Shown in pieces: positions 1,226-47,416 of a stretch of DNA of 64,000 nt (the stretch's first letter is position 1; each line of letters opens with the position of its first letter). The stretch covers positions 796,393 to 860,392 of the forward strand of contig CAUYUJ010015027.1 of NCBI GenBank assembly GCA_963575745.1, given 5' to 3'. The notes beneath the pieces are model-generated. The model searched no databases and was not told the DNA's origin. It saw nothing but the letters and a program-made list of their open reading frames with translations. The translations under genes were made by a program, and so were the position numbers. This stretch comes from Prorocentrum cordatum. Taxonomy: Eukaryota; Sar; Dinophyceae; Prorocentrales; Prorocentraceae.

Positions 1226-1247
1226 TCCGTAGCCATTTTGGCTCAAG
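1226..1247 (+). other. Dinoflagellate spliced-leader sequence (relic), exact
   Basis: T, then CCGTAGCCATTTTGGCTCAA, then G: a full match to the 22-nt leader that dinoflagellates trans-splice onto mRNA 5' ends. Here it is genomic, just before the LINE-1 ORF1 remnant. It is therefore best read as a leader copied back from a trans-spliced RNA. The next bases are GTGATG, so the GT of an SL RNA donor is present, but the following LINE sequence argues against an SL RNA gene. Confidence 0.93.
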
Positions 1248-1365
1248 GTGATGTCTTCCTCAGGGGAGAACGTGGATACCGCAGTCCACGGCAAGCAAGA
1301 CTTCCTGAAGTTTGGCGGGACTTCTCTCCCACGCAACCTGCGTTCGGGGTGGTGGGTAAACGGAG

Positions 1366-2580
1366 GTGTTTCCCGCTCCTGCTGTCCCAAGCGCACAGGG
1401 ACCCATGCCCAATGATGTCGCCCCTGCTTCCAAGCGTGCGAAAGGGCCACAGAAGGGACACAAAACGGCTCGTGGACAGTCAGGTGCACCCGTGGATCGT
1501 GACAGCGTGGGTGATTCTGCAAGCGGCTCCTCGATGCATTCAGATATTGGTGATTATGGTGCTGCTGCCGTTGAAGGCGATCCTTCTGCTGTTGAGGCCG
1601 AGATGCTCGACAGTGACGAGGAGTGGGCCAAAGACGACTACATCAAGCCGCGACGAGCTCGTCCGTGACCTTACCGCCGTCGTCTCCACGACTGTGTCTG
1701 ACCAGGCCAAGGACTTTGAATTTCAGATTGCTGACGACGCTGCTGCTGCTCGCGCACTGGCTCCCAAACATGGCGCGAGAAGCATCTGAACGATTTTGCA
1801 CAGACAAACTGGATGTTTTGCAGCGGAAGCTCCAGGAGCAGCTCGACAGGCACGCGATCAGGCTCCGAGCATGTGAACGCCGACTTGACGAGCATGATAC
1901 TGCATTGCAGACCCTCCGCGGACAGACTGACGAGCTTCGGGGCGCACTGGCCCTCGCCAGCACCAAGCCAAAGCCAGTTCCCGCCAGCGCTGCAGGCTTC
2001 GACAGGGAAATCGACGCGACCATCATCAGGCCCGTGGCCTCTAAGCTTGTGGAGCTCGACGCTGTCAAACAGGTTCTTGCAGATTGGATGGTCGAATGTG
2101 GCGTCGAGGCTGAGTTATTTATCTCGTCGGTCGGGCCCATCTCAAGGCAGTTCGCCATCCAGTTCAATGGCGCCGCGGGCCCAGCTGCCCGCCGCGTCGC
2201 TCAGATCCTCGGAGCTCAGCGCATCGCCCCCGGCCAATGGCAGCGCTTCGAAGTCAGAGCTACCGACAATCAACAGGCCAACCTTCACCTGGGCGCGGAC
2301 GAGAACCCGGGGCAGGTCAAGTTCGAGGTTCAAGGCCGCAAGCTCCGCGAGGCCTCCCGCGAGATCGCCAGCGACAAGAGGTGGTTCTTTGACGGGCGAC
2401 CGCGGGTGCATCATGGCAGGATGGGATCCAGCGCTCCGTCGTTCGCCCAACCCTGGCAACATCGGCTTCGAAGATCGCGCGGGCCGACGACATCGTCCAA
2501 AGGCTTGGCCTTCCCAACGAACGTCTGGTCGCTGCTGCCAAGTCGATCAGCGTGCCTCCTGAGGCAGCCGGGTGGAGCCT
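1366..2580 (+). pseudogene. LINE-1 ORF1 protein remnant (coiled coil plus RRM-like)
   Basis: Probably an RNA-binding ORF1 protein that would package element RNA. The reading starts at 1366 (or at the second Met near 1408) with an acidic segment ending SDEEWAKDDY. It must change frame near 1665 and again near 1775. A heptad-like coiled coil rich in Leu, Arg and Glu follows at about 1795-1960. Next comes a segment with ELFISSVGPISRQFAIQFNG (about 2110-2170) that resembles the first strand of an RRM, as in L1-type ORF1 proteins. Another frame change near 2400 is needed to keep the coding character (ARADDIVQRLGLPNERLVAA). It is clearly inactive. The assignment rests on architecture and position rather than on a family signature. 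Confidence 0.55.
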
Positions 2581-3300
2581 TTAACGGGTTCGCGAATGTT
2601 GTGCATGGACGCCCGCCCGGCACGCCAACCTTCTCTTTCGCATCGTGGAATACCAGGGCCCTACTGCAGTGCCATGGTGCACGCGCGAAGCCGAAGCTAG
2701 CCTACCTCAGGCGCCTGGACTTCACCCGCGGTGCCGTTGCTCTCCAGGAGGCGCACCAGGACGAGAAGCAGTTGGCTGATTTTCTCTCCAAGGCGGCCCC
2801 TGCCGCGCGTCTCTTCGCCAGCTACTGCGACGGGTCTGCAGTTAAACTTGGACTTGATACGATGATTCCTGCGGGTTGCCACGCTGGGGTTTCTCATCGG
2901 TCTCTAGTTCATGGTCGAGTGCTACGAATAGTGTTGCAACTAGAGGGCCCCCGCATCTCCCACTGCAATGTACACAACCATAACCTCACCATCGCGCAGC
3001 TTATCTGGGTTCCGAAAGTTTTTGGCAGCTGGCAAACAGATGGCGATGGCAGATCCGCTGCGCAACGCGGCGGTAGTCCACGGCGACATGAACTACGCCC
3101 CGAAGCCCTCTTCTTCACCTGCCCCATCGTCCTCTTGCTGAGGGTGCAGGCCAGCATGCGCGCGCGGCCCGATGGGCTCACGCTCTACGACTTCTCACGG
3201 AGATCTCCTCGGGCGAGCCCACGCACTGCGACGGGAACTCCCGCTCGGTATCTACACTGGACAGAATGCGGATCAGCTGGCCCGGTTGGGCGTTGACACG
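2580..3300 (+). pseudogene. LINE-1 APE-type endonuclease remnant
   Basis: In intact elements this domain nicks target DNA to prime reverse transcription. The N-terminal motif FASWNTRALL lies near 2635-2665 and the metal-binding Glu motif LQEAHQDE near 2740-2765, both in the third frame. The GDxN active-site motif appears as GDMN at 3082-3093 but in the first frame, so at least one indel separates them. The terminal SDH-like motif was not found with confidence. Decayed beyond function. Confidence 0.6.
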
Positions 3301-3636
3301 ACTTACCGCGGAGCCTGCGGCCAATCGATGTTCTGGAGAATTTGCAGATCGATTTGCCGGCGACCACGCTGCACGCCTCGCGCGGCTTACCCAGAGAGTT
3401 ACAATGCCTCGTCGGTCACATCACATACCGCGACATTTATTTGAAGCTGAAGCTCAGCAGTTCAAGGTGGTTCACCAACAGCTGAACTACGCCGACACGA
3501 GTCCCCCGAGGCAGATCGAGCTACACAAATGGGAGATAAGATTGGTGGCTGCTGATTGTCGTGATCGTCAATTTCAACAGGCTCCTGAATCGAACGCCAC
3601 GCTTCTGCTTCTCGCTCGGCAAATGTCACGAGCTGC

Positions 3637-5285
3637 GTGGAGGAACGATACGAAACTCGAAAGCTGTTCTGCAATCATGCCACGGCTCGGGACTTCTTAG
3701 AGATCTGTGACAACAGGATTACGCTTCGCCATGCTGCTTCATGCCAGCACTGGCGTGACAGCATTCAACGTTGCCATACCGATGGGCTTCGAGCGCGCCT
3801 TGAAGACAGTCTCGCGCGCCCGCGGGCCCCTCGCGCCCTCCAGCACCAACTTGCTGCGGTCGAACGCCGCTCTGCTATCTGGTCACCGCTCAACCGTCGG
3901 CTAGCGCTGCGAGCGGTCAAGCATCCCACTGATCCAACTAGTGTCTCCAGCGACTCGCCCATCATGACTGAGAGGCTGATTGACCACTGGGCACCGATCT
4001 TTCGCGCCATGCCGATCGACGCTCTGCTCGCGCAGTCTTGCATCGAGCAGCGCACCCCCATCCTGGACCCCGCTAAGGTTGCGCCCCCGTCTCCTGCATT
4101 GCTACGAAGAGTTGCTCAGAAGATGCACTACTCAGAGCCAGGCGTGGACTCCATCTCGCATTCTGCATGAGCAGCCACCTCCACGGGCAGCATCGATGTG
4201 CTTTCTGACGCGATGATGTGGATCATGAGCGGTCAGTCGCTGTTCGAAAGCTCAAGCGACGCGCTGCCGGCCTGGCTCCCGACGGGCGAGGAGGCGGAGG
4301 ACTCTTTGGCAGCAGGTTGCGCTTGCGCTCCCAGTGCAGTTCGCGCACTAGGGCTGCGCAGCGCGGAAATTAAGCTCGTCGCTGCCACCGTTCACATTCA
4401 GTTCTGCAAATTGCTGATGGACTGGGCGCCTCGCTCCCAGCGCGGCTTCATTCCCTAACGCAACCTTGGTGTGAGCGTTCTGGAGCTCAACGTGGTCTCG
4501 CGCACCTACTCGAACTCGCCAGCGGCAGGGCGCGACTTGCCCGCCATCGTCGCGCTTGATGTTGGCGCGGCCTTCCCGAGCCTTGCCCAGGTGTTCATGA
4601 TGATGGTCTTTAAGCAGATGCAGACCCCCTTCGCCTCCATGGCCATACTGGAGCAGCTCTACCACATCTTAGACGCCATGGCCATGACCAACGGTACGCC
4701 TACTTTCGCATGGAGGATCTCCTCGAGCATCACCCAGGGGTGCCCCCTCAGCGGATATAGTTGTGCTGCTGCCACGGGCTGCTTCTTATTTGATCTATAA
4801 GTTCAGCTCGAAGGTGCGCGACTGGGCCTGGCCCGCGCGCGCGCCGACGACACCGGCTGCGTCGCCAACCAGCTTCAAGCCCTGAGGGCGGTTGCCGATG
4901 TGATGCAAACTGCGGAAGCCGCAGCCACGCTCTCGTCAAAGCTGACAAGATGCATGCTGGTCCCGTTGCACGCGCAGTTCTCGTCTGAGGTGGCGGCTAC
5001 AGTTCGACAGGTGCTGGCGGCCACGGTATTGTTCATCGCGCAGATCGTGAGCACGCTGGTCTACCTCGGCCTTTCCTTGGGACCTGTTGCGGATGCCAAT
5101 TCCTGCTGGCAGGCGCCGCCGCTCAAGGTAAAGTTTCGCTCTCGGCTGGTCGGCAGCAGTGCCTCGGCTGTTCCCAGGTCCGCGACCAACTACACCACCA
5201 GGATCACACCAGTGCTCTCAGATGTCGCCCAGTTCAGGATGATACCACAGTGGCTGCTCAGGGAAGAGTTGATTGCACTATCGAG
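3637..5285 (+). pseudogene. LINE-1 reverse transcriptase remnant
   Basis: One reading frame carries the linker and the RT core but is broken by stops at 4168-4170, 4456-4458 and 4798-4800. Recognisable RT blocks are PGVDSI (near 4140), a segment ending WAPRSQRGFIP just before the second stop, motif A as ALDVGAAF (about 4552), motif B as TQGCPLSG (about 4732) and motif C reduced to ADD at 4843-4851, where an aromatic residue usually precedes the Asp pair. The stop at 4456 falls where elements of this type normally have a Gln, consistent with a CAA-to-TAA change. Near 5285 the coding frame shifts again. Confidence 0.75.
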
Positions 5286-6540
5286 ACGGTTCGGGTCCCG
5301 TTGGGGGTCTTTAACATCGCAGCATGGCTTCAGCTTCGTGGCGCTGGTGGGCCACCTATCCCGTCTTGGCTCGCTCTGAGCATGGGGACACTTACTCGTG
5401 CGGCGAATGCGACTCTTCCTGGGTTCCAGCGTCTGCATCAGTGGCTCTATCGGCAGCATGACCGACAGGGCGATCTGAGGGCACTCTCTCAAACATCGTC
5501 GGCACGACCATACCCACAGTTCTGGAAGCCAGAAGATTTCGTCGAAGCCCTGGCTAGGGCTCAGAGTGGCAGCTATTCGGGGAACTTCCCCGGCTACACC
5601 ACGTCAACGTGGACAGCGGCGCACGCGGCTGCTGACGAGTGGTTTTCGCGCTCCGCGCGCCCCTCTGGCCTCAATCGCTTTGTCACCGACGCATTGGGAC
5701 TGCTTCGCCACCCGATTCATCAAGGCTTTCCTTGGGATGCTAAGCGGCGGTCTTTCTTGCGTCCCCATTACATCGGTGGGCTCACATTCTTCGACACCTT
5801 CGGAAGTGCTCTTTGCCGTGGGCTTTCGCCTACATCAAAACAGTCGCCAACGGATGGGCTTCTCGAGATCGTATTCTGCAACCCCAATGGTCGCCTAGCA
5901 TGCCGCATTGGGTGCAAGCACTGCCCTGACGCGCTCAAGGACTACCTCAGCTGCGTTCTATTTCGGAAGCAAGTGGAAGGGGAACTTGGCCACGCGCGCC
6001 CAGCTACTGCACTTGGGCGCCTCGGGCTGCTAGGAAGTGTAGTTGAGCTCGATCGCATCGTGTGTGACGCCGTGGTCATGTACTACACCTATGTTGGCGC
6101 GGCCCATGGCTCAGCGGCACGCATTTGGCCACCAGAGACTGTGCGCTCGCATGTAGAGGCCGCCATACGCACTGCTCAACTTGGGGTGACTGCCCCGTCA
6201 TTGGCTCCTGTTGCGTCTGCTTGTCGGGCGCGTCGCTCACGGGGGCCCTCTGCCCCGTCGCGCTCGGCGTCTGCCTCGTCGTCCATCTCGTCTTCCAGCT
6301 CACCGCCCTCTTCCCCTCCAAGCTCGCCCAGCACGTCACCTTCGTTTTCCCATGTCAGGATTGTGGAGGCGGCCTTCGATTTGATCGGCCCTCTTCCCTC
6401 TGATGATCGCGCCGAGGAGGAGGAGTGGAGGATCTTGGGTTGCGGTTGTGTGGCAGGTGAATGCCCCCAGCTATATGAGAGACCGAAGCACGCGCCTGCT
6501 CCGCCAGGGCCCATTGAGGCCCAAGTGCAGCCTCCCCCGA
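5286..6540 (+). pseudogene. LINE-1 ORF2 C-terminal remnant with Cys-rich motif
   Basis: After the frame change the sequence continues as the post-RT region (RVPLGVFNIAAW and onward). It contains a CxxC...C cluster, CKHCPDALKDYLSC, at about 5912-5955, in the position of the C-terminal zinc-binding segment of LINE ORF2 proteins. A Ser/Pro-rich low-complexity stretch follows (about 6230-6350). No RNase H motifs are visible, unlike LINE-2. Confidence 0.5.
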
Positions 6541-6541
6541 T

Positions 6542-7645
6542 ATGGCGGCCCCGTTCGCTGCCATGCCTGGGAGCGGCCTTATCCATGATCTTCCCTGCTT
6601 GCACGCGATTGAAGCCTGTGGCGACCTGCCCCGCCGACCGTCTGCGCAGAATGCTGCCGAGGTCAGCGGCGACCTGCTCCGCCTACCACATCGTTTGCAT
6701 GCGGCTGAGGTCACTGGCGAACTGCTCCGCATACTGACTGCTCTGGATGCGGCTGAGGTCTGCGGCGACCTGCTCCGCCTGCGGTTTTCTTTGAATGTGG
6801 CTGAGGTTTGCGGCGACCTGCCCCGCCTACCGTCTACCCAGAACGTGGCTAAGGCCTATGGCGGCCTGCCCCATCTTCCCGCGGTTCCTGCCGCTGGTGA
6901 TTCAAGTGGCGCACAATTTCACGGTCCTGTCCGCCCGATGGCTGCCTCGGCGCTCGCATTCACTCCACGCGCTGGGGCGACTGGAAGCAAGGAACGCCTT
7001 CGCCGAGGGGAGGCTGATCACGCTCACTGTTTCTGAGACTCCTCGGCGCTTGCTCGCCCACGGCTGCATGCGCCCGGTGATGGTGTAACCCCTGAGCGAC
7101 GTGTTCACCGCATGCGGCGAGAGATGATCAACCGGGCTACGGCGCGGGCTAGCAGTTGGCCACCTTCTCTGCACTACCAAAGCGAGGCGGACAACTTCGC
7201 CACCTGGCTCGACTGGTGCGCCGACTACGTATATGGGTCGTTGTTATACTCCCCCTTCGTTGCCCACATCACCCGCATCATCGAACGCAGGGGAGGCCCT
7301 CAAGAGCGCCATCGTCGGCGCGAGGCGGAGGATATCTGCATGACGGCCCACTACGGCAGCGCTATCACTCGTGAGCGTCTACGTCGAAAGCTGCCTGGCG
7401 CACTGCTCAATCCGACGGACGAGATCGTGAAGCTTCTGGTGAAGCTCTCCAAGCAGCACTACGACATGCTCACCTGGCGCCCTGACCTGTCACGCATGCC
7501 GGTCGACTCGCGCGCCCGCTTCTTGACGCGGGCAGGAAATTGTGACCCTGGGAGGCATGGCAGAGACATGAGAAACGACCTCCGCGCCGAACGCTCAGAT
7601 CGCCAACCTGATCGCCACGCGAGGCTTCGCCGTCGACGACATTGA
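6542..7645 (+). pseudogene. Unrecognised coding-like tract containing the 16-residue repeat
   Basis: One frame is open from 6542 to 7645 except for a TGA at 7034-7036. It begins with the six 16-residue repeats and continues into a less repetitive segment (about 7112-7600) with mixed composition, including WLDWCADYVYGSLLYS and DEIVKLLVKLSKQHYDML. I do not recognise a family. It lies directly behind the LINE-1 ORF2 remnant in a different frame. It may be a further part of that element or an unrelated host fragment. The start at 6542 is only the first available Met. Confidence 0.35.
6611..6898 (+). repeat. 48-bp in-frame tandem repeat, six units
   Basis: Unit starts fall at 6611, 6659, 6707, 6755, 6803 and 6851, exactly 48 bp apart. 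Each encodes 16 residues of the pattern EVCGDLxRLxxxxNAA. The units differ in bases but keep length and frame, with no stop inside the array, as expected if the repeat grew while coding. The last unit is the most diverged. Confidence 0.9.
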
Positions 7646-8310
7646 ACTTGAAACGATGGAGCAGCTGCTAAAGACATGGAATCGTCCGAGGATCACTGCC
7701 CGCCCAACGAGACTGAGGCACACCAGCAACCTGTTACGGAAGCGGATGATCACCCGTCCCTTGCCGATGCTCACTTGGTGCTCATGGGAGAAATTCAAGC
7801 CGATCATGTCCAAGGGTTGCCGCCGCCTGCCGCTTACGAGAGCGACATGATGTCGGATGACGAGCGCCTTGCCTTCATGGCCTGTTTCGAGCTCGCCTGG
7901 GCCATCACCGCCCGGTGCTGACTCCGACGTTTTCACATGGATGAGCCCCGCCGCAGCATCATGTGCGACGCTGCTGCCTGCTGCCACCCCAGTGGGCACG
8001 TCCCCGCCACGAGAATGCCGCCCTGGACTGAACGACCACAGTGGCGAGGGAGAGGACAGCGATCTTGATGATGAGTGGTCTGATGTCGAAGGCTCGGCGA
8101 CAACCCCCGACGTGCCCGCGCCATCATTCCATTCTACACTCGCGCCTGCATCGCAGCCGACTTCGCCTCCAGTGGATGATCACGCAGAGGCTGAACTTCA
8201 TCGCAATTGTGTTCGCGACCCTTCCGATCGGCGGCCTGCCGGACATGAACTCCACGCTGCACACGCTGATGGACAAGGGCACGTGCTGGGCCCCATGAAT
8301 TTCTGACGCT
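7646..8310 (+). pseudogene. Unrecognised coding-like tract with frame changes
   Basis: Peptides of normal composition continue behind the previous tract but change frame: 7676-7921 (with ESDMMSDDERLAFMACFELA) and then 7857-8306 (acidic, with GEGEDSDLDDEWSDVEG). The switch lies near 7910. No family is recognised. Bases 8311-8685 show nothing clear. Confidence 0.3.
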
Positions 8311-8685
8311 GGGCCTTGGAGCAAGCACACGGCCGTGGGCACTACGACTGGGCAGCTGCCGTCAACTTCTCGCGCGACAGCTCGCGTTTGAGGTTATTGC
8401 GCAAGGCGTTGATCCGCGCCCGATTTCGCAAGCTAAAGCGTGGGCAACCTCCGTGGCAGCGAACCTATGACGATGGAACTAACAGGGGGCCCTGCCGATC
8501 CAGATGTGATTTCTGAACAGCAGATCGAGTCCGCTCTGCGCACGCTGGACATCCTGTGCCCTGTGATCTGCGGACAAAAAGGAACTGATCCAGTGGATGC
8601 TAAACAATCCTGCAAGCCTCCTGGGCGCTGACGATGAGCTACCATATGCTGCTGAGCTAGAGCTAGTCCCTGCCCCCCGGTGTTC

Positions 8686-9113
8686 ATGAACATATTGTTG
8701 ACGAGCCTGTCTTTCTCGAGTTCCTCGCGGCCGAGGACGCGATGCTGTGCGACGCGGAGGACGCGGGCGACCCTTCCATCAGCGCCCAGCTGATCGCTGC
8801 CGCCTCGCCTCCTGATGGCGCTCATCTTCATCCTGCCGAAGCCCATGTAGGCACCTCCGCGGTCGTCGAGGGCGCCTTCCCTGACCGCGCGCCCATCGGC
8901 CCCGCGGCGCTGGCGGCGTTCGGCGGCGCCGACGGTGCCCCCACTTCCTTCGTCGCCCACGGCGCGCTCTTCCCCGACTGCGACCCAGCGGGCATTCTCG
9001 TCGGCGAGTTCGACGCGCGCATGCTGGCCATCGACGGCGTCGCCTTCGCGGACGCCGACCTCCCCGCTCCGAGCGGCCCCGCGAGCCGCGCGGTGGGCGC
9101 AAGCGGGCCCTGA
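8686..9113 (+). CDS. Unrecognised coding-like segment before the CTC array
   Basis: A frame open to the TGA ending at 9113 reads EHIVDEPVFLEFLAAEDAML and then an Ala/Asp/Pro-rich sequence. The acidic, alanine-rich composition and the G/C-rich third positions could be coding, but no motif is recognised. A Met is available at 8742. It may be the 3' remainder of the LINE-1-linked tract. Confidence 0.3.
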
Positions 9114-9145
9114 GGAGTTTGGATTATTCGCCTCAGGAGCGCTCG

Positions 9146-10698: not shown

Positions 10699-10720
10699 TC
10701 CGTTGCCATGTTGGCCCAAG
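10699..10720 (+). other. Decayed spliced-leader copy (19 of 22 bases)
   Basis: Reads TCCGTTGCCATGTTGGCCCA then AG. It differs from the dinoflagellate leader at positions 6, 12 and 18. It sits immediately after a CTC array and 77 bp before an ORF, the same context as the exact copy at 1226. The last two mismatches are T-to-G and T-to-C. Confidence 0.75.
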
Positions 10721-10797
10721 CCGCATGCTAGGTCAGGGCCTCAAACGCGCCCTACTCTCTGCCGCATGTCTTTGGCTGCTGGCGCCGCTCTTGTGGT

Positions 10798-11847
10798 GTG
10801 CATGGCTCAGTGCAGGCGACGTGGCCCATCAACGTTCCGCTGCAGCGCGTGCCGATCGGGCTCGTCGCGCTCGTCGCCCAGGCTATCTGCATGTTCCTCC
10901 CCCTGGCCACCGGTTTATCGCGGTGCCCGCTGCGCTTTATGAGAGTGCGAAGTGCGCGTGTCAAGGGCTCGCTCTGCACGCCCATCCACAAGCTGATAAT
11001 GGAGTGCGTTCTCACGGGCTTCGTCAGGCCGCTCTCCTTGCCAGCGACCGTGTGGGACCCGATGCGACGGCTGCTCATCTCCGTGCTCACGTTCGTGCTG
11101 GACGAGCCAAACATCGTGTGCCACCTGTACCTGTCCCGGAGGCTGGCGCTGGACCGGGGGCGGTGGCTGCTGGCGCCCCACCGCAGGCGTCGCGTTGTAT
11201 TACACGATCTCCTACCTCCTCGTGCCTGTGCGTCTGGTGACATTGCGGCCCTGCTCAAGTCTGTCCAGCTTCTGGTCAACGTGCGCATGTCCGTGCCGTC
11301 GGTGAACCAGGTGTTCCCCGTCGGCTGCTGCGCAGGCTCTGATCTGCAGAAGGTGTCTGGCTATACCAATTCTCTCGCTAGCTCTTCTGGTCCGCGCAGT
11401 GTCCTCACTGCCTCCTCGCCTACGCCGCCGCGTGCGGCTGTGAATTCGTCCATCGCGTCCGACCTCGACTTCGAGACCGAGCTTTGCTTGTTCGAGGAAT
11501 TGGCTGCTCGTCAGTGTCCTCCCGATCTGCATGCCGAACATCTGCAAGACCGCCGAGCAGGTGGTCTTCCTCATGTGGCCTCGGCGTCGTGCATTTCGGC
11601 GCCCCCTTCGGCGTCGGCGGGTTCTGCGGCATCCCCACCGCGTGCTATCTCGACGCCGAGTGGTTCTTCTGGCGCCCGTTGTTTTCGGTGCGGGGGCTCC
11701 ACGGTGTTCATCCGCAACGATCTCCGGCCTTGCGAGTGCCCTGGAGCGCAGATCGACTGGTCGAGCATTCCTGGTTACGCTGACCTCGTCTTTGTCGAAG
11801 ACTCCGACGGCGACCATGCCAAGGCCAGCAATGACGACAACACCTGA
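10798..11847 (+). CDS. Hypothetical 349-codon ORF downstream of SL-like site
   Basis: Open from ATG at 10798 to TGA at 11847. The first 170 residues are hydrophobic and basic. The rest is Ser/Pro/Ala-rich and ends with a Cys cluster (CFRCGG, then CEC) and an acidic tail. No family is recognised. The DNA is GC-rich, so long frames by chance are common here, and an overlapping frame is also open to 11240. In favour are the SL-like site upstream and the CTC arrays at both sides (10592 and 12327), which mirror the LINE loci. It may be a retrocopied gene or an element ORF. Function unknown. Confidence 0.35.
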   Translation: MHGSVQATWPINVPLQRVPIGLVALVAQAICMFLPLATGLSRCPLRFMRVRSARVKGSLCTPIHKLIMECVLTGFVRPLSLPATVWDPMRRLLISVLTFVLDEPNIVCHLYLSRRLALDRGRWLLAPHRRRRVVLHDLLPPRACASGDIAALLKSVQLLVNVRMSVPSVNQVFPVGCCAGSDLQKVSGYTNSLASSSGPRSVLTASSPTPPRAAVNSSIASDLDFETELCLFEELAARQCPPDLHAEHLQDRRAGGLPHVASASCISAPPSASAGSAASPPRAISTPSGSSGARCFRCGGSTVFIRNDLRPCECPGAQIDWSSIPGYADLVFVEDSDGDHAKASNDDNT

Positions 11848-11850
11848 AGA

Positions 11851-12006
11851 GTAACGACACGGACAAGGACATTGTCAAAGATAAGAACAATAATAAGGAC
11901 AAAAACAATGACCCAGACAACGCCATGGTCAAGGAAGGCGACGAAGACAACGACGGGGACAATGATAATATCAAGGATACGGACAAAGACAAGAACACGG
12001 ACATTG
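11851..12006 (+). repeat. Imperfect GACAA-type low-complexity tract
   Basis: A-rich variants of GACAAnGAC repeat through the stretch. Bases 12007-12326 show no supported gene. Confidence 0.6.
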
Positions 12007-12326
12007 TCACGTACCTGGGCGACGTCGCCGCTCCTCCTGCATGGTCTATGGGAGATCACATCTGGCTTCACGGCCTCAATACAGCCTCGCTGAACGGCAC
12101 GGGTGGTGTCATCTCACAGCTGCACGCTGGCCGCGACCGCTTCGGAGCCCAGGTCCACTCGGGGAAAACCGTCGCCACAAAAATCCACAACCTCATCAAA
12201 GTCATTACTTCGAGTTTTCCTTCGAGGACTTCTTCACCATGTTCGTCGGCTTCGTCGCCTTCGAAGACATGAGCGGCGCCGCGGCGCCGGGAGGAGGGAC
12301 CCGCGCTCCCGAGCACGATCGACTCC

Positions 12327-35130: not shown

Positions 35131-37119
35131 GCCACATCGAAGATTTCTGACCCCCCGACTCAAAGCCCCAGGCGAGCAGCCCGCCTGCCTGGCGTTAGCG
35201 CGTTTTGGTCACACATTCACGTACGCATCGTTGTGATACTGTTGGCGCTCCGCCGTAACAGGACGGCACCAGAAGAGTTGTTGCACTCATTCCTCCCGCT
35301 GCGCAATGTCCATGCCCGAGTGGTGCAGGCCTCAAGCCCCATGACGGGAGTATGAGTACAGGGACGAGGGCAGTGCGAAAAGTGGTGTCCGTGGCACGAT
35401 TGGACCCCCGGCGCCATGGACCCCGCGGAGCCGCACATAGAGGAGGGGCCAAAAGTGATGGTGGCGAAGCCTGGTGATAGTGCGGGCTCTGCGGTTGCAA
35501 AGAGGCAGGAAAGCACCTGCTCCGCGCAGCTCAGGGGGCGCGTTTCCTCTTGGGCGCCCCCGCCGCGGGGTTGACACAAGGTCGGCACCTGGCTGAGCGA
35601 GGCGAGCCATCTTCGGGCCCGCGAAGACACGCGGGGAGACCTTGGGTCGCGCAGGCCGGTCTCTAGGGCCACGCAGGGCCCGGGCAAACAGGAAAAACGC
35701 GGGGTGGCTGAGCTGGGAGCCGCTCTTCGACGACGCAACGTTGGCTGCTTCCGTGCAGGAACCCATGGAGTTCGAGGGCAAGGCCGGCCATCGCCTCTCG
35801 GCTCGAAAACCCGCACAGGGCCACCAGGCGGGCCAGGTGGGGAGAGCGGGCCCAGGAGGCCGTCACCAATGGAGGCGGGGCCCATCAGCACAGCAAGGCC
35901 TCCATGGAATGGCGCTCCGCCGAAGTCCTGCCAGCCCCCCCCCCACCTGACCAGAAGCCCCCATGGATCAGATGGGAAGTGTCTTGGAAGAGGTCTGGAC
36001 CCCAGCCGCCGAGACTGCCGGTTTCCCTGACGCCATAGGGCTTCGCAACCACAAGATAGGTGAGTTGCAAGGGTCGGACCATCCGGGAGCGGCGGCGCCC
36101 GCTCGGTGGGTCCGACACCATTCGCCCCGGGGACCTCGCGAGGGTGTCGGATGAGGCGCCAGAGGCCCTGTGTGCGAGTTGGATTTGGTGCGAGTCCGTT
36201 GGGCGCGCCCCTGTCCATCTCGCGCGCTTGTGCACGGCCCTTCTCCCCAAACCCGGCGGAGGTTTCAAACCCATGGATTTGCCCCCTGTCACTTGCATGG
36301 TCTTTCGCAAAATCACCTGCGACGTCGCGTTGGCTTGGCCAGCCAGGCAGAACAGGGCTCACCACGACGGCGCCGCTGGCAAGAGCTGCGAGCGCGCGGT
36401 CTGGGAGGGGGGCTGAGCTGCACCTCAACAACCCAAAAGTGCTGAGGCTGCACTCTGCCCAGAAATCACAGGTAGGCCCAGGCGTGACCCTCATCCACGA
36501 CGTCCAAGCTCGGCGTCCCCGGTGTCCAAAAAGTCCGAGCGAAATTCCCCTCCCGCCCCTCCCTGTTCGAACCGGTGCCAGAAGCCCGAGGCCACCGATT
36601 GGCCCGCGTCAACCAGAAGGACATATATCAGTGCACTGTTTGCAGAGTAGCGGGCAGTAGAGGTGGGATTTATAGGCCCGAGTGTCGTGGTATCCCCAGG
36701 ATAGTGAGTCCAGCCCATTTGGCCCGCTCCCTCTGGCTAGGGGGGGAGCGACGTTGCTGGTGCTCCAGGTGTGGGGCCTTCGGGATGGTTCGGCCGAACT
36801 ACCTAACAGCAGCACGCCACTCCCACAGGGTCGGCGTGGACCCGTCCACTTGGAAAGAGCTTGGGCGGAGTGGAGTGTACGTATCGCGTGGTGGATGCAG
36901 GCTCTCGTGTCGTGCTGCCGCTGTCGCTGCCTCTGCCTCGGCGGCTTTAACGACCTCATGGCAGGCGCACCCCCTTGCTCTCTCTCCTATCTTACGGCCT
37001 AGGCATTGCAGTCATGCGGGACGCCTGCCGTTGAACCCGAAGGAATCCGACGGCAGTAGATGCCAGGAGCGCACGAGACGCACGAAAGAAATGGAAGGGA
37101 TGAGGAAGACGGAGAAGGG
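35131..37119. other. No supported gene
   Basis: GC-rich mixed sequence. Frames of 100-400 codons exist on both strands (for example minus 35217-36494), but I see no motif, no balanced composition and no repeat family. Confidence 0.55.
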
Positions 37120-40778: not shown

Positions 40779-40838
40779 GGAAGGGGGGAGAGGAGGACGA
40801 GGAGGAGGAGGAGGAGGAGGCGGAGGAGGAGAAGGAGG
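40779..40838 (+). repeat. (GAG)n array at the LINE-2 5' edge
   Basis: GAG/GGA triplets end one base before the SL copy region. The last 13 bases (GAGGAGAAGGAGG, 40826-40838) recur at 47337-47349 beyond the element's A-tract and look like the left target-site duplication. Confidence 0.9.
40826..40838 (+). other. Left target-site duplication of LINE-2
   Basis: GAGGAGAAGGAGG. Identical to 47337-47349. The GAA interruption makes the match more than triplet register alone, although the GAG-rich context raises the chance of coincidence. Confidence 0.7.
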
Positions 40839-40839
40839 C

Positions 40840-40861
40840 TCCGTAGCCATTTTGGCTCAAG
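40840..40861 (+). other. Dinoflagellate spliced-leader sequence, exact, at the LINE-2 5' end
   Basis: T, CCGTAGCCATTTTGGCTCAA, G: identical to the copy at 1226. It lies one base inside the left direct repeat and 149 bp before ORF1, so it is the first sequence of the inserted element. It fits a copy of the leader from a trans-spliced LINE transcript. The bases after it (GTCCGG) differ from those after the 1226 copy. Confidence 0.95.
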
Positions 40862-41010
40862 GTCCGGAGGCATTGCTCAAGGACTTTGAGGTTGTGGCGG
40901 GGGGGATTCGCGGCCCCCGACTGCTTTACCTGGCGTTCGCCCGCCAGGATCACATTCACTAATACGTCTCGTGTACGGAACTTCTCTTTTCTTCCCCACT
41001 TCATCCTTCG

Positions 41011-42297
41011 ATGGTTCCTGCGCCCGCATCTTTCTCGTATGCGCCGTGGGTGCGTCCAGATGAGTGGACAGTTGTCCAAGGAAATTGGAAGGGAAAGAAG
41101 AAGCAAGGCCAGGGAGCTGCTTGCCCAGGCTGTGGTTGCAAGAAGAATGCTCCAGATGACACTCATTGTTACCATTGCAGCACTCTTCTGCCTCGCCTCG
41201 CTGTCGGTCATCCACCTGCTGCTCAAGGGTCATGGGCACGTCCTGCTTCGCCCCCAGGCTCGTTCTTCCATCTCGGCCCACTCATGGGGGGCAAGGGCGG
41301 AGGCTTCGCTGGCGGCGGCATTGGAGGCAAGGGGGGCATGGGTGGCGGCGGCAAGGGCAGAGGAGTACATGGCGGTTGGGCAGGTACATGGGCAAGTGGC
41401 GCACTTCAGCCTGGTCCCGCCGCGGCGGGAGCTGGTCAGCTGGCGCCGCTGCCAGTGGGGGCCGTGCCCAATCTGTCCAAGGATGAGGCGTCGGAGTTGG
41501 CTCGGCTGTGTCAGAAGGCTGGAGACAAGGCAGGTGCCACCAAGTATTCGTCCTGTGCGAAGTCGCTGGCGGCTACTGAGGAGCGTGCGAAGCAGCCAGT
41601 CTCAGCACATCAGGCCGCCCAACAGCATCACGCTCATGTTCGGCGGATTGAGAAGCAGCTGGAGGGCGACCTCGCGAGGCTCCTGCGTCTGCAGTCCGAG
41701 GTGCAGGAGCAGGGCGAGAAGGTCAAGCGCGTGCGCTGCGAGTTGCAAGAAGCTGACAGGGTGTACAAGGAGGCGGTCCAGAAGCTTGCTGCTGATTCGA
41801 AGGTTGTGCCCAACGTCGAGACGGCAAAGCTCAAGCTCGAGGATTTGCTTGCAGGCTCTGTGGACATCGGCTCCATCTTCAGCTGCGACATCCTCGATGA
41901 CTTCGGCGATGACGACGAGCTCGAGCTGTCGGCTGAGGATCGCGAGGAGATTCAGAAGCGCACGGCACTCTTGTCGCAGGGCATTGCGGACATGGCTAAG
42001 ACGCTGTTCCAGCAAGCGGTCGACCAGGCCAAGTCCGCCCAAGCAGCACATCAAGCGCATAAAGCTCGTGCGGCAGGCAAGCGTCGCAAACGTGAAGATG
42101 GGCTTCATGAAGCTGGCGGGGGTGACGTCGGAGCTGAGGCCGCTACAGCCGCCGCGTCTGGTGGCGAGGGTGAGCATTCCCCGACGGCTGGGAGCAGCCA
42201 GCAGGCGCCAGCTGAGGCGCCGCCAGCAGACATTCGTGCGCGTGCAGATGCGGCTCTACACACCCGTGAGTCAGGTGGCGCCTCCCCCTCGTCCTGA
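41011..42297 (+). CDS. LINE-2 ORF1: zinc-finger and coiled-coil protein
   Basis: 428 codons, ATG at 41011, TGA at 42295-42297. Residues 38-56 form CPGCGCKKNAPDDTHCYHC, a CxxC-x11-CxxC zinc ribbon-like motif that could bind RNA. A Gly-rich stretch follows (about residues 92-125). Then comes a long charged helical region (about 150-345) with heptad-like spacing, likely a coiled coil for oligomer formation, with acidic DDFGDDDELEL near 300. A basic patch, KARAAGKRRKRE, and a low-complexity Ala/Ser/Pro tail end it. It is the first ATG after the SL copy and has no stops, so it may be intact. By position it would be the RNA-binding ORF1p. It shows no resemblance to the LINE-1 ORF1 protein. Its end overlaps the possible start of ORF2 by 50 bp. 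Confidence 0.85.
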   Translation: MVPAPASFSYAPWVRPDEWTVVQGNWKGKKKQGQGAACPGCGCKKNAPDDTHCYHCSTLLPRLAVGHPPAAQGSWARPASPPGSFFHLGPLMGGKGGGFAGGGIGGKGGMGGGGKGRGVHGGWAGTWASGALQPGPAAAGAGQLAPLPVGAVPNLSKDEASELARLCQKAGDKAGATKYSSCAKSLAATEERAKQPVSAHQAAQQHHAHVRRIEKQLEGDLARLLRLQSEVQEQGEKVKRVRCELQEADRVYKEAVQKLAADSKVVPNVETAKLKLEDLLAGSVDIGSIFSCDILDDFGDDDELELSAEDREEIQKRTALLSQGIADMAKTLFQQAVDQAKSAQAAHQAHKARAAGKRRKREDGLHEAGGGDVGAEAATAAASGGEGEHSPTAGSSQQAPAEAPPADIRARADAALHTRESGGASPSS

Positions 42298-45200
42298 GGG
42301 GGGAGAACTTTTATGCTTCAGTAAAGCTTGTGTTTCTGGAATTCGGTTTGTTTTTGATTTTTTTGCCTCTCGAGCCTCGGTCATTGGTTCGAAATCCAGA
42401 GTCTCTGGCATCAGGCTTTTTAAGAGGTTTCAGTCTGAGTTCCGAGCCGCCACTCCCGAAGCCAATTCCTGGGTCGCGCCCTTGGTCCCTGCGGACGTCC
42501 AAGACACCCCAGGATCCAACCCCTTGGAGCCCCCGAGGCCCGTTCCACTTCCCGTTTCCTCTGGGGCCTCAGATTTCCAGCTGGAGGTGGCTACTGTCAA
42601 TGGGAACTCTTGGGGCACGCTCTACAAGTTTCTGGAGTCTACGTCGGCCCACGTCGTCATTGGCCAAGAGCATCGCCTCAGAGCCTCAGACATCGATCAG
42701 AAGTCGGAAATCTGCCAGAAGGCTGGGTTCAAGACTGTTTGGGCGCCTGGCGTGCTCGGCGAAGGTGGAGGTGTTTCTTCGGGAGTTATGGTGGCGGCTC
42801 GTGGTGGATTTGGATGCTACGAAGCTTCTGAAGTGGTTCTTGTTGAAGGGCGAGCAGCCGCTGCTCTGATTCACGTTCCTGGGTGTGCCCCGTTCGCCGT
42901 CGCGTCGGTCTACCTGGTTCACTCGCAAGGACTGTCGGAAGCTAACATGGACATCCTACGGGCGGTTGGGGCCTTTCTTGATGCCCAGGGTTGTGATTTT
43001 GTTGTCGCAGGTGATTTCAACTTCTCTCCTGGGGTCCTGTTTGAAACCAACTTTGCGGAGCTTCTGAAAGGTGTCATTGTGTCGGCCGATGGGCGCACCC
43101 ACTTCCCCGCTGGAGGTGGGTCTCCCGACACCTTTGATTGTTTTGTTCTCTCGGAAGCCTTGGGGCGGTGCCTGCAGCAAGTCAGAGTGGTCACTGAGTC
43201 GGATATTTCCCCGCACAAGCCTGTGGCCATTAAATTTCACCCGTCCCTCGGCTCTCTCAAAGCTCCCGCGTTCCGCCGCCCCCCTGATTTGCCTCCGTCG
43301 GCGCCGGTGGGGCCTCAACCGTGCCCTGGGGATTGGTCCGAGGTTACTGCTAAGGCCGAAGCCGCTCACAGGGCTGTCCTTTCGGGGGATTTGCAGAAAG
43401 CCAGGGACCTGCTCACGCCTGGTTATCGTTTGTGGGCCAATGCGGCTGAGTCTGACTTGGCTAACGTCTTGGGGGTTGAGCTTCCCGCCCGCGGCATGAG
43501 GGGTAAACGCCCCAAGCTTGTGTGGAAAATGGTTATCAAACCTGCGGGCAAAGTCGAGGATCCCAGCCTTAGGTCCATCACGTGGCTCGCTGCTCAGCTT
43601 CGTGCTCTCAGGAGCTACCTTTTGAGTGATGGCGCGGTGCTTCCACCTGCTGGTCGGGGAGTTGCTCTCGACATCGTCTCTGTGCCCGTCGAGGTCGCTG
43701 TCGAGGCGGACTCCGACTGGCACCAGTTCTCTCAGGCTAGTGCTGGCTTAGCTGCCCGCTGCCTGGATCGTTCTCGTCCCCACGTTTCTTCCCAGCGCGG
43801 TCTCGATGTTAGGTCTGGACAACCTCCGAGCCAAGGCGGCTCAGGGGATGTGCTCTTGTTTAAGTCGCCTGGTCAGTCGGATGTCGAGGTTAGGCTCTGC
43901 GATCTGGATGGTGGAGAGCCTAATGTTGTTGCCGACTCCCTGCGCGCGGATCTTGAAACCCTGCTCGACTCGGTCGATCGGGCCTGTTTGGGGGCTAAGG
44001 TCGCGGCTGCTGCCAGGTCTAAGGCGTCTTGGCAGGAATGGGTTCGAGAAGGATTGAGCAAGGGCAGTCGTAATGCTCAGAGAGCCATTCGTGACCCCGA
44101 GCCTTGGACCCCCACGACCACGCTCGCGGCGGGGGGCATCATTGTTGCGGACCCCATGGCCCTCTTGAGGGCCGAGGCTGTCAAGTTTTCGGCTATTTGG
44201 GGGGATGGGGACGGGAAGGGTATCGATGGCGCGTTACTCGAACCCCTGCCTGTCCTTCAGCCAGCGGAGTTGCGTGCTTTTTCCAAGAAGTATAGGCTGT
44301 CTAGTGCGGTAAGTGTTGACGGCTTTCATTGTCGCCATTTCTCGTTGCTCTGTGATCAGGCGCTTCGCTGCCTCGCTCTCTGGTTTTGTGTCATGGAGGC
44401 CACGGGATCCCTGCCGCAACAGATTTCCTGGGTGCTCATGGCCCTCTTGGGCAAGCCCGCTGGGGGCTTTCGGCCTATCGGGGTTTTCCCCAGTTGGCAC
44501 CGCCTCTGGGGGCGGGCTCGTCGGTCGTTTGCCCAACGCTGGGAAAGCAATAACCCTCGGGACTTCTGGGCGGCGGGGGCCAACAGGGGCGCCTCTGACG
44601 CGGTGTGGCGGCAAGCCTTCAAGGCCGAGGCTGGACTCAGCCGTGGCGATGTGTCCGCCTCCATTTTCTGGGATCTTCGGAAGTATTATGAACGCATTGA
44701 CCTTCGTCTGCTCTATGCCAGGTGTCAGCAACATGGGTTTCCTCTCGGCATCGCTAGGCTTGCCATTCGAGCGTATGCTACCGCTAGGTACCTGGCCCTT
44801 GGAGGCTATGTCGAAGGGCCGTATTTCGTGATCAGGGGCATAGTGGCGGGCTGCTCGTTCGCCACTAGCTTGATCAGAGTTTTCGCGTTGGCCAGCTTCG
44901 ACTCGCTCCCGCGTTTGCCAGGCTTGGACTTCGATGCGTATGTGGACGACCTGGGCCTCAGCTGCACGGGCAGCGCCAGGCAGGTCGTTCGTGCGCTGGT
45001 GGGCGGAGCCCGAGCGCTGCGCAAGTGCATCACTGATGAGCTGCAGTGCCTTCTAGCCATGGACAAAGTGGGGATGGTTGCCAGCAACAATGAAGTCGCC
45101 TCTCAGCTCCTCCAGAAACTTGGGCCCCTGGCTGGCCAGGGTGTGGGTATTGGAAGAGTTACGAACTTGGGGGTTGACTACACTGCGGGCCGTTCCCTGA

Positions 45201-45484
45201 GGGCGCCTGGCCGTGGCCGCGCGGCTAAGTTTAAAGCTCGTCTTGCGACTGCGCTGCGCAAGACCAGGAGGCTCAAAAAGATTGGGGACGTCCTCGGGAG
45301 GCGCTGCTTGAAGGTGTTTGCTGCGGGACCCCTGGCTGGTGCGTCCTACGGGTCTGACATCTTCGGAGTGTCTGACGCCGAGCTCCTGACCTTGCGTCGT
45401 GCTGCTATGTCGTGTGTTAAGCCACGCTCGCAAGGGCGTTCCCTGGCCGTGCTCAGGCTGCTTGAGGGGGGCCCGTGCTGGTGA
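42248..45484 (+). CDS. LINE-2 ORF2: APE endonuclease and reverse transcriptase
   Basis: 1078 codons from the only Met between ORF1's end and the endonuclease (42248), to TGA at 45482-45484. The frame is open further upstream over ORF1, so translation by frameshift or reinitiation is possible. The endonuclease spans about residues 109-331, with ATVNGNSWG, GQEHR, SSGVMVAARGG, VVAGDFNFSP and SPHKPVAIKF, so the active-site Asn, Glu, Asp-Asn pair and final His are present. The reverse transcriptase spans about 677-980, with GGFRPIGVFPSWHRLWGR, motif A FWDLRKYYERID, motif B RGIVAGCSFATSL, catalytic AYVDDLGL (YVDD at 44939-44950) and a later LGVDYT. All catalytic residues are intact. In other elements the protein would run on, and here the same frame continues after the TGA. 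Confidence 0.93.
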   Translation: MRLYTPVSQVAPPPRPEGGELLCFSKACVSGIRFVFDFFASRASVIGSKSRVSGIRLFKRFQSEFRAATPEANSWVAPLVPADVQDTPGSNPLEPPRPVPLPVSSGASDFQLEVATVNGNSWGTLYKFLESTSAHVVIGQEHRLRASDIDQKSEICQKAGFKTVWAPGVLGEGGGVSSGVMVAARGGFGCYEASEVVLVEGRAAAALIHVPGCAPFAVASVYLVHSQGLSEANMDILRAVGAFLDAQGCDFVVAGDFNFSPGVLFETNFAELLKGVIVSADGRTHFPAGGGSPDTFDCFVLSEALGRCLQQVRVVTESDISPHKPVAIKFHPSLGSLKAPAFRRPPDLPPSAPVGPQPCPGDWSEVTAKAEAAHRAVLSGDLQKARDLLTPGYRLWANAAESDLANVLGVELPARGMRGKRPKLVWKMVIKPAGKVEDPSLRSITWLAAQLRALRSYLLSDGAVLPPAGRGVALDIVSVPVEVAVEADSDWHQFSQASAGLAARCLDRSRPHVSSQRGLDVRSGQPPSQGGSGDVLLFKSPGQSDVEVRLCDLDGGEPNVVADSLRADLETLLDSVDRACLGAKVAAAARSKASWQEWVREGLSKGSRNAQRAIRDPEPWTPTTTLAAGGIIVADPMALLRAEAVKFSAIWGDGDGKGIDGALLEPLPVLQPAELRAFSKKYRLSSAVSVDGFHCRHFSLLCDQALRCLALWFCVMEATGSLPQQISWVLMALLGKPAGGFRPIGVFPSWHRLWGRARRSFAQRWESNNPRDFWAAGANRGASDAVWRQAFKAEAGLSRGDVSASIFWDLRKYYERIDLRLLYARCQQHGFPLGIARLAIRAYATARYLALGGYVEGPYFVIRGIVAGCSFATSLIRVFALASFDSLPRLPGLDFDAYVDDLGLSCTGSARQVVRALVGGARALRKCITDELQCLLAMDKVGMVASNNEVASQLLQKLGPLAGQGVGIGRVTNLGVDYTAGRSLRAPGRGRAAKFKARLATALRKTRRLKKIGDVLGRRCLKVFAAGPLAGASYGSDIFGVSDAELLTLRRAAMSCVKPRSQGRSLAVLRLLEGGPCW

Positions 45485-47252
45485 GCGAGTGTGGCGCCTA
45501 TTATCAGATGGTCGAAAGAAAACTGGCTGTGCCACACTCGGGCGTTTCCTTGGTGCTTGTCTTGGGCGGATCTGCGCGAGGGCTGGATACAGACCTTCAG
45601 CCACGACAGCCATTCGTGGTCTAAGGTTCGTGGCCCGCTCTCGGCCCTCCGCATGTGTGTCTACCGTCTTGGGTGGGACATGCCAGACTTCACTACCCTC
45701 AGGGATGACTTCGGGATGGACATCTCGCTGACGCTTCCCCCCCCCCCCCCCCGCCTTGTCAAGGTCTTGTGTCGTGACGCGGTGCTCAGAAACCTGGAGA
45801 GGGATTCTGGGGATAAGTACGGGGTGGGATACAGGCTGTGTTGGGATGTGGTCAAGCAGCAGCTCTCGTCGTCCAAGATCCCCGCCAAGGCCAAGGGTGT
45901 CATGAGAGCTCAAGCTGGTCGTGCCTTTTGGACAGGAGTCGATGCTGAGGCGGCTGGCTATTTCGAGGTGTCGAGTCTCTGCCCGTTATGTGGTGTCGCG
46001 AAGGACACCTTGCACCATCGCCTATTTTGCTGCACGGCGTGCAACGAGCAGCGCAAGGAAGTGCTACCCGAGTGGCTTGTGGAAGCTGCATGTGATACGT
46101 CGGACCCTGAGTATGAGGAAGAGCTCTTTCTGTATGGGGCGTTCCGTCACCCTGGAGATGTTGCCCCAAGACCCCTGTGTGATGGTGGTGTCTCTCTTGT
46201 GTGGCATGTCGAGGACCTCCCTCCTCCTCCTCCTGCGTGTGGTGCTGACAGGGTGGCTCCGAGGGATAGCATGTGGGGATATTTGTTTATGGACGGCTCT
46301 TGCCACAGGCATGTGGTTAAAGAACTGTCGCGTGCGGGCTGGGCGGTGACCATGGTGGGGAAAGATGGCGAGCTCCTAGGTGTCCTCAAGGGGCCTGTGT
46401 GGGCCCCTTGGCCTCAGACCCCCCCAGGCCGCCGAGTATGCTGCGTTCGCGTTCTGTGGGGCCTATGCCGATGCTCCGTCCGCGTGCTTCAGTGACTGTC
46501 AAAATGTTGTGGATCACGTGGCGCTCGGTGCTGACGTGCTCTGTGGTAGGAGGCAGTATTCCGGTCTCGTGCTTCAAGGCAAGCGCCATTTTGGAAGGAA
46601 CCTGCGTGCTCTCCACAAAGTGTCGGCACACAAGGATGTCGATGAAAGTGGCATTTCGGCCAGTGAACGTTTCAGACGGCTCGGCAACCGCTTTGCTGAC
46701 CATGCTGCCAATGAGGCGGCACTGCTGCACCCTTCCTTGACCCCTGTTGAGGCTGATGAGCTCGATAGGAAGATCAAGATAGCGCGTCTGGTCTTAAAAG
46801 CGGGGTCTGTTTTATTACCCTTGTGGCCGCGTCTTGAGTTTCGAGGCACCGCCAGGTCCAGGCTCCCTCCTGCTCCTCGTCACCCTCCTCTGGAAGTTGG
46901 GCACTCGTGGGTGCAAGTTGGGTCCTTCTGGCAGTGCCGAGTTTGCCTTAAGGGCTCTCGGGCGCGGGCCCCTCCTCCTGGGGACTGTTCAGGACACTCC
47001 AGGCTGGACCAAGGTGTGCTGCTGAGGTTGGGGCACAAGGTCGTGGCATTCCCCTGCTCCGAACTTTCGAATTTGTTTGTTTGCTTGTCTTGCAAGTTTT
47101 ACAGCAGCGGCTCGCAAATTCTGAAGCTCGGCAAAGTTTGTGGCCAGCCCACCATCACGTCAATCCGCAACTTGCGCAAGCTAAAAAAGGGCTTGCATCC
47201 TGACAAGGCTCAGGTGACAGTTGACATTGATGACTGTGTCGCGTTGCTATAG
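45485..47252 (+). pseudogene. LINE-2 ORF2 C-terminal part: CCHC motif and RNase H, separated by TGA and a frameshift
   Basis: The frame continues from ORF2 after the TGA with ASVAPIIRWSKENWL, a typical post-RT segment. A zinc motif CPLCGVAKDTLHHRLFCC lies at about 45979-46035. RNase H begins with FMDGSC (Asp codon 46292-46294). The frame then changes by +1 in a seven-C run at 46419-46425, and six Cs would keep it open. In the new frame the other catalytic residues follow: AAEYAAF (Glu 46434-46436), SDCQNVV (Asp 46494-46496) and GNRFADHAA (Asp 46698-46700). A Cys-rich tail with CRVC and CLSC ends at TAG 47250-47252. RNase H would remove the RNA template strand. The TGA and extra C may be real lesions, recoding sites or sequencing errors. 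Confidence 0.88.
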
Positions 47253-47336
47253 GAGCTTGGCTCCTCGGTGCCTGTTTGAGCCTCGGACAGGTGCGTCGGT
47301 TACTGCAGGAGGCATGGGCGTTGCTGCCAGAAAAAA

Positions 47337-47416
47337 GAGGAGAAGGAGGAGGAGGAGGAGAGGAGGAGGAAGAGGAGGAGGGGAAGAGGAGGAACAGGGA
47401 GAAGAGCAGGAGGAGG
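47337..47416 (+). repeat. (GAG)n array, with right target duplication at 47337-47349
   Basis: Follows the AAAAAA tract of LINE-2 and passes straight into the Family A leader at 47417. Without LINE-2 it would be continuous with 40779-40838. Confidence 0.9.

Follow-up and report, generated by a model that had tools for sequence, protein, structure and literature searches.

The 64,000-nucleotide stretch of Prorocentrum cordatum DNA analysed here (contig CAUYUJ010015027.1, positions 796,393 to 860,392; below, the window) contains a long interspersed nuclear element (LINE) at 40840-47336 on the plus strand. Its first bases are an exact copy of the dinoflagellate spliced leader (SL), which the host joins to its own messenger RNAs, and its last bases are six A. 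In this and related copies, the DNA shows the SL as the first bases and an A tail; the target duplications measure 13-15 bp, the GGA target is strand-specific, the arrangement recurs over many insertions, and older leaders lie behind the newest one. We propose, with a probability of about 0.8, that families of LINEs starting exactly with the host 22-base SL are most likely trans-spliced before being copied into GGA DNA by their own reverse transcriptase (RT).

Boundaries and coding regions of the window LINE

The two ends of the element contain the following features:

40826-40838 (+): left target-site duplication, GAGGAGAAGGAGG, in a GGA microsatellite, followed by an extra C at 40839
40840-40861 (+): dinoflagellate SL, 22/22, first bases of the LINE
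40863-40881 (+): decayed older SL (TCCGGAGGCATTGCTCAAG), with a counterpart in families 1-4
40882-41010 (+): remaining 5' untranslated region (UTR), with predicted hairpins (G-run/C-run, and CTGGCG...CGCCAG)
47331-47336 (+): A tract, AAAAAA, 3' end of the LINE
47337-47349 (+): right target-site duplication, GAGGAGAAGGAGG

The SL (TCCGTAGCCATTTTGGCTCAAG) matches at all 22 positions, in agreement with a preliminary description of this DNA, which had claimed it as the first bases of the LINE. In 100 shuffles of the window, the last 21 SL bases had zero matches at up to 3 mismatches. The 13-bp direct repeat brackets the element on both sides, as had also been described; because both flanks are GGA-rich microsatellite, it is weak evidence by itself, and a GGA run of 17 bp is the longest string common to the two flanks. 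Firmer evidence comes from four relatives in which the duplication, read by eye, is not pure GGA repeat: GAGCAGGTTCAAAAC (C17433, 15 bp), GAGCAGGAGGAAC (C17056, 13 bp), GAGGGGGAGGGTG (C14059, 13 bp) and GGGCACGCCA(A/C)GGGC (C17410, 15 bp, one mismatch). The duplication evidence comes from families 1 and 2 only. The SL had further been described as beginning inside the repeat, which is incorrect, as the single extra C (40839) separates the two. A lone C directly 5' of the SL is present in many copies of families 1-4, including that of the window; it is unlike the product expected from copying of the 7-methylguanosine (m7G) cap.

Behind the SL, one G is followed by the decayed second SL, with 2 mismatches and 3 bases missing. 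The preliminary description overlooked this relic, and also two further SL-headed elements of the window, whose leaders begin at 1226 (an exact copy) and at 10699 (with 3 mismatches). A pairing between the SL and the UTR (CTCAAGTCC with GGA..TTGAG) was considered and rejected: RNAalifold predicted it within families, but several distant copies, judged by eye, no longer have its distal side. No Rfam ribozyme was obtained in the window at gathering score, nor in 40800-41100 up to E 10, and a ribozyme-defined 5' end of the L1Tc/ingi type (hepatitis delta virus-like) was rejected.

The open reading frames (ORFs) of the element are as follows:

41011-42297 (+): ORF1, 428 amino acids from the first ATG, with a cysteine-rich start and no Pfam match
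42581-45484 (+): ORF2, ending at an in-frame stop (the frame is already open at 40847), assigned as apurinic/apyrimidinic endonuclease (APE)-type endonuclease and RT
45485-46495 (+): ORF2 frame continued past the stop, weakly matching zf-RVT (E 0.0048, below cut-off)
46380-47252 (+): C-terminal part in another frame, with an RNase H-like motif by eye and no Pfam match

The window copy is broken, by the in-frame stop (45482-45484) and by a frame change between 46380 and 46495. Pfam matches of its ORF2 to PF03372 (E 0.002) and RVT_1 (E 0.005) are both below cut-off. P0001, a relative found in ENA with 44% identity across 49% of the query, matches PF03372 with 28.2 bits, above the cut-off of 24.5, and RVT_1 with E 1.1e-4, below cut-off; residues that we take to be catalytic are conserved between the two proteins. 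Window ORF2, P0001 and these residues together, not the window copy alone, indicate an endonuclease and an RT in one ORF. The A-rich 3' end, the duplications and some 5'-truncated copies (C18027, C170, C5424) were likewise found, as is typical of a LINE. An RNase H assignment was rejected, the motif being seen by eye only and none by Pfam, and an AlphaFold2 model of the RT from a two-sequence alignment was unusable (mean predicted local distance difference test score, pLDDT, 29.8). A C run inside ORF2 (45737-45752) is possibly a site of sequencing or assembly error. Elsewhere in the window, 36150-36455 weakly matches the RT part of ORF2 (27% identity, E 3.8e-4), and is perhaps a LINE fragment.

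5' ends and insertion sites across the genome

Copies were collected from the window's own P. cordatum assembly (4.13 Gb, 21,875 contigs). All searches scored the best candidates only, so that the copy numbers given here are lower bounds. For families 1, 2, 3, A and B, the sequence used as probe started just after the SL, and thus did not select for it. For family 1, the best 40 of 109 first-look candidates were scored. A set of 20 stretches comprised 10 that were SL-headed, 3 with a later start (L014, L015, L025) and 7 lacking the 5' end; for two of these seven (C17092 and C16633), an SL-headed 5' end was located at other coordinates. Wider stretches at C16655, C16389, C13824, C6580 and C20933 contained no family match, and that at C14390 contained an ORF2 piece only. 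Loci with late starts or gaps were excluded from the 5'-end counts (C170, C9241, C18315, C1225, C21154:40671, C11670, C1376), and the duplicated loci C15407/C15343 and C8011/C7901 were counted once each.

Family 1 begins with the SL at 13 of the 14 loci reaching the 5' end (12 exact, one with a single deletion). Family 2 (66-69% identity) is SL-first in 10/10 unique insertions, 3 of them exact, and families 3-4 in 8/8, 7 of them exact; seven of these eight were obtained with the family-1 probe, and C842 with a 3' probe. A second family-3 probe included the SL, and the best 40 of its 843 first-look candidates were scored. Among the matches listed, all start at base 1 or 2 except C5424 (base 52) and the second C15329 piece. 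This probe gave 19 further ends, 18 of them SL-first (12 exact), the other being C5424, truncated in GGA; these ends are less independent, because the probe contained the SL. Counting family A (described below) as LINE-type with families 1-4, 62/64 loci begin at the SL. The two others start approximately 28 (C18027) and 51 (C5424) bases inside, and look 5'-truncated; both occupy the same GGA target. Among these 64 loci, the tabulation of other copies proposed in the preliminary description thus yielded no exception beyond these two. With family B included, 78/80 loci of the six families are SL-first, and 45 of the 78 carry the exact 22-base SL.

Shared sequence upstream of the SL, which the preliminary description had named as grounds for abandoning its claim, was sought by all-against-all comparison of the upstream flanks of 33 family 1-4 loci. 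Only two duplicated pairs had their flank in common, with otherwise short matches of 73-85% identity. With the duplications lying outside the SL and nearly all LINE-type loci starting at it, the earlier claim that the leader belongs to the inserted unit holds: as in an SL-bearing retrocopy, the SL forms the 5' end of a duplication-bounded insert.

GGA-rich flanks on the element's strand were observed at all scored loci of families 1-4 (32/32 + 18/18 = 50/50), where GGA-rich denotes a GGA cover of 0.3 or more upstream, a level reached by 5.4% of 100-base stretches of the window. A tails of approximately 5-11 bases are present in most family-1 and several family-2 copies. An SL-like string outside these families (2 mismatches) was noted at position 3050, minus strand, of L071 (G000:C16389:76000-80000), in GC-rich, non-GGA sequence with no family 1 or 2 match.

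The two additional SL-headed elements of the window are:

1226-9145 (+): element A, a probable decayed LINE (end placed by eye), with an exact SL at 1226-1247 and TCC repeats on both sides
10699-12322 (+): element B, approximately 1.6 kb, repetitive (end placed by eye), with an SL with 3 mismatches at 10699-10720 and TCC repeats on both sides

In element A, motifs resembling those of an endonuclease and an RT were recognized by eye only, near 2637, 4558 and 4735. Pfam revealed no RT or endonuclease in pieces of element A, nor in the relatives P0002 and P0003, which cover only part of the query, and the element is therefore a probable LINE only. Family A is SL-first in 13/13 copies (the window copy and 12 further copies; 5 exact), and its flanks are TCC-rich in 10/13 and GGA-rich in 0/13. 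Of six stretches examined for its 3' end, three had no match, one stopped short of the end, and two reached it; the 3' end enters TCC repeats in 3/3 copies compared, including that of the window.

Family B begins with the SL or a mutated SL in 16/16 copies (the window copy and 15 further copies; 6 exact), and its flanks are TCC-rich in 13/15 further copies. An RT was looked for in element B, and none was found; a TCC-targeting element perhaps carries element B as a passenger. One of its frames opens with a hydrophobic, signal-like stretch.

Leader history and alternative explanations

In the mechanism that we propose, host trans-splicing would join the SL to the LINE RNA, giving the RNA its 5' end. 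The element endonuclease, encoded in ORF2, would nick the strand opposite GGA, and the A tail would anneal near GAG, priming reverse transcription. Copying would run to the 5' end of the SL, so that the new insert begins with the SL. A single clean leader could be maintained by splicing at the leader's terminal AG (CTCAAG|body), which would replace the old SL exactly, whereas use of the internal AG (CCGTAG|CC) would leave 15 bases of the old leader behind as a stump.

Traces of repeated splicing are present in several copies. By eye, a second, decayed leader lies directly behind the first SL in all 49 SL-first loci of families 1-4. The family B copy L137 consists of the SL, CCATTTTGGCTCAAG and the body, and carries a 15-base stump as from splicing at the internal CCGTAG|CC; another, L139, has two SLs in tandem, the first without its last three bases. 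The family A copy L099 repeats GCTCAAG. We interpret the stacked leaders, the stump and the repeat as marks left when trans-splicing acted on RNAs in which a leader was already present. The proposal of the preliminary description, that trans-splicing preceded reverse transcription, gains support from the stacked leaders of related copies, which would be hard to obtain otherwise. The stump-bearing copy indicates that re-splicing does happen. The stump occurs in only 1/78 SL-first copies, and the internal AG is therefore not a routine splice site; strict re-splicing there in every cycle was rejected as the routine mode.

The history of the leader was examined on a tree of 22 family-1 and family-2 copies, built without the 5' end. 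For this test the long-branch copies C20133 and C21154 were dropped, and both rows of the duplicated C15407/C15343 were kept. Over its 22 sites the SL exhibited 2 internal-branch and 9 terminal-branch changes, and the next 83 sites exhibited 35 and 58, respectively. The 2 internal SL changes compare with 9.3 expected from the next 83 sites (Poisson P(<=2) approximately 0.005, calculated by hand), and one of them is the duplicated pair. On terminal branches alone, 5.5 SL changes were predicted and 1 seen in family 1; in family 2, 34.8 were predicted, a number swollen by two long-branch copies, and 12 seen.

Several points weigh against our interpretation. The data are DNA throughout, and all steps of the mechanism are deduced from it. 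Because the stump is so rare (1/78), routine re-splicing must either rely on another site or be absent. The other internal SL change is a T-to-G that C20510 and C16633, which are sister copies, have in common; it would be expected from inheritance, unless it is a coincidence. Between the SL and the remaining UTR, the internal-versus-terminal contrast does not reach significance (Fisher p = 0.17). The truncated copy C170 sits in a GAT-type repeat rather than GGA, and the place of family A among the LINEs draws on motifs seen by eye.

The same observations bear on the alternative that survives best, that of an encoded leader: an ancestor would have acquired the SL once, transcription would start from its first base, and selection for promoter, translation or packaging function would keep it, with no trans-splicing in each cycle. 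We regard this as possible, though clearly the less probable course. The single clean SL of most copies, the near absence of the stump and the change common to two sister copies fit it well, and a published review (PMC6050394) puts forward the hypothesis that a retroposed SL has a promoter motif, TTT(G). It accounts less well for the existence of the tandem SL and the stump, and for the same 22 bases heading families A and B, for which protein-level comparison with family 1 gave no significant match (lowest E values 0.16 with A and 0.041 with B); a further comparison of A was likewise without a significant match. It is also opposed by the first base, which is A in three SL-first copies (L128, L141, L150), the position given as ambiguous in the published DinoSL, although the A of L128 could belong to the GGA flank.

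Alternatively, the leader-bearing RNA could have been copied by another RT, such as that of a long terminal repeat (LTR) element, the LINE being a passenger like any retrogene. LTR elements are favoured as agents of dinoflagellate retroposition in the same review (PMC6050394), and family B, in which no RT was found, is SL-headed in TCC repeats like family A. The A tails, the 13-15 bp duplications, the strand-specific targets and the truncated C18027 and C5424 in GGA typify target-primed LINE insertion instead, and make copying by another RT unlikely.

An assembly artefact, in which cDNA or chimeric reads were joined to genomic contigs, is very improbable. One contig filed under a bacterial metagenome-assembled genome (MAG), L002 (CAJXDJ010000191.1), does start with a TCA repeat that runs into an exact SL, the two together occupying 1-52, and is probably a chimera, another case of an SL adjoining a trinucleotide repeat; the insertions described here are internal to contigs as long as 2.1 Mb and occur at many loci, in some cases with duplications on either side, and diverged copies contain decayed SLs. 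Chance landing next to an SL copy or SL gene that has nothing to do with the LINE can be dismissed despite the hundreds of SL copies reported (PMC8045281) for each of two Symbiodinium genomes, since the duplications lie outside the SL, the other copies already refute it, and the SL is followed by the element's UTR and not by the SL-RNA intron, which excludes an SL-RNA gene as neighbour.

Relation to known systems and implications

The SLACS/CZAR/CRE LINEs of trypanosomatids target the SL-RNA gene. As in the P. cordatum elements, LINE and SL sequence adjoin, but here the SL constitutes the first bases of the element, and the target is a GGA or TCC repeat. SL-tagged retrogenes of dinoflagellates were reportedly described by Slamovits and Keeling in 2008. 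Such genes, known also from passages of PMC6050394, PMC12014239, PMC7245778 and PMC3229502, likewise carry an SL copied from RNA to DNA, and stacked, decaying relics behind the newest leader. They are host genes, whereas here the RT-bearing element is itself SL-headed, throughout its families, with duplications, an A tail and a target.

The trypanosomatid L1Tc/ingi LINEs also reside in an SL-trans-splicing host; their transcripts are reported (PMC8190864) to be unspliced and to start from their own promoter, with a Pr77 promoter and ribozyme, unlike the window LINE, for which Rfam gave no ribozyme. Microsatellite-targeting non-LTR elements share the insertion into simple repeats, and those covered by the relevant part of PMC4640811 use restriction-like endonucleases; here Pfam points to an APE-like endonuclease, and the host leader forms the 5' end. 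The dinoRNAV RNA virus, with a 5' dinoSL, is similarly a selfish RNA with the host leader, and LINE-mediated integration has been proposed for viral inserts (PMC10235124, in part). It differs in being an RNA virus with endogenous copies, and those passages of PMC10235124 do not mention a LINE with an SL 5' end. No description of such a LINE was found in a literature search, which covered papers other than subscription papers.

The SL was also observed in sequences filed under other organisms. The AT-rich L001 (IMGVR_UViG_3300045993_001077), filed as viral, contains two exact SLs on the minus strand (2746-2766 and 2893-2913), 147 bases apart, one of them upstream of a 267-amino-acid open frame; possibly a viral genome has taken up a host cDNA tagged with the SL, or a virus itself makes use of the leader. 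L003 (JAKUNN010000063.1), filed as a Dehalococcoidia MAG, contains an SL at 4334-4354 (minus strand) followed by GTACG, as in the SL-RNA gene, with an apparent 18S rRNA start a few hundred bases beyond, and is probably alveolate contamination.

For the LINEs described here, expression may plausibly depend on host trans-splicing. The SL as 5' end may be an answer to the LINE 5'-end problem in a trans-splicing host, unlike the promoter and ribozyme of trypanosomes described in parts of PMC8190864. A more speculative extension, which we consider doubtful, is that the LINEs lack an intrinsic 5' end and have the SL renewed by host trans-splicing at its terminal AG in each cycle, and that GGA- and TCC-targeting elements drive the formation of the SL-retrocopies abundant in dinoflagellate genomes, with B as a passenger. 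SL-bearing (retroposed) genes exceed 20% of genes in data cited in the consulted part of a review (PMC11453091), and the review PMC6050394, in the part cited, calls the elements mediating retroposition unknown, with LTR elements as a guess. Given LINEs that start at the first base of the SL and have a defined target, and given an SL-headed family that is RT-less and inserted in TCC repeats, the question of the retroposition agent becomes directly testable.

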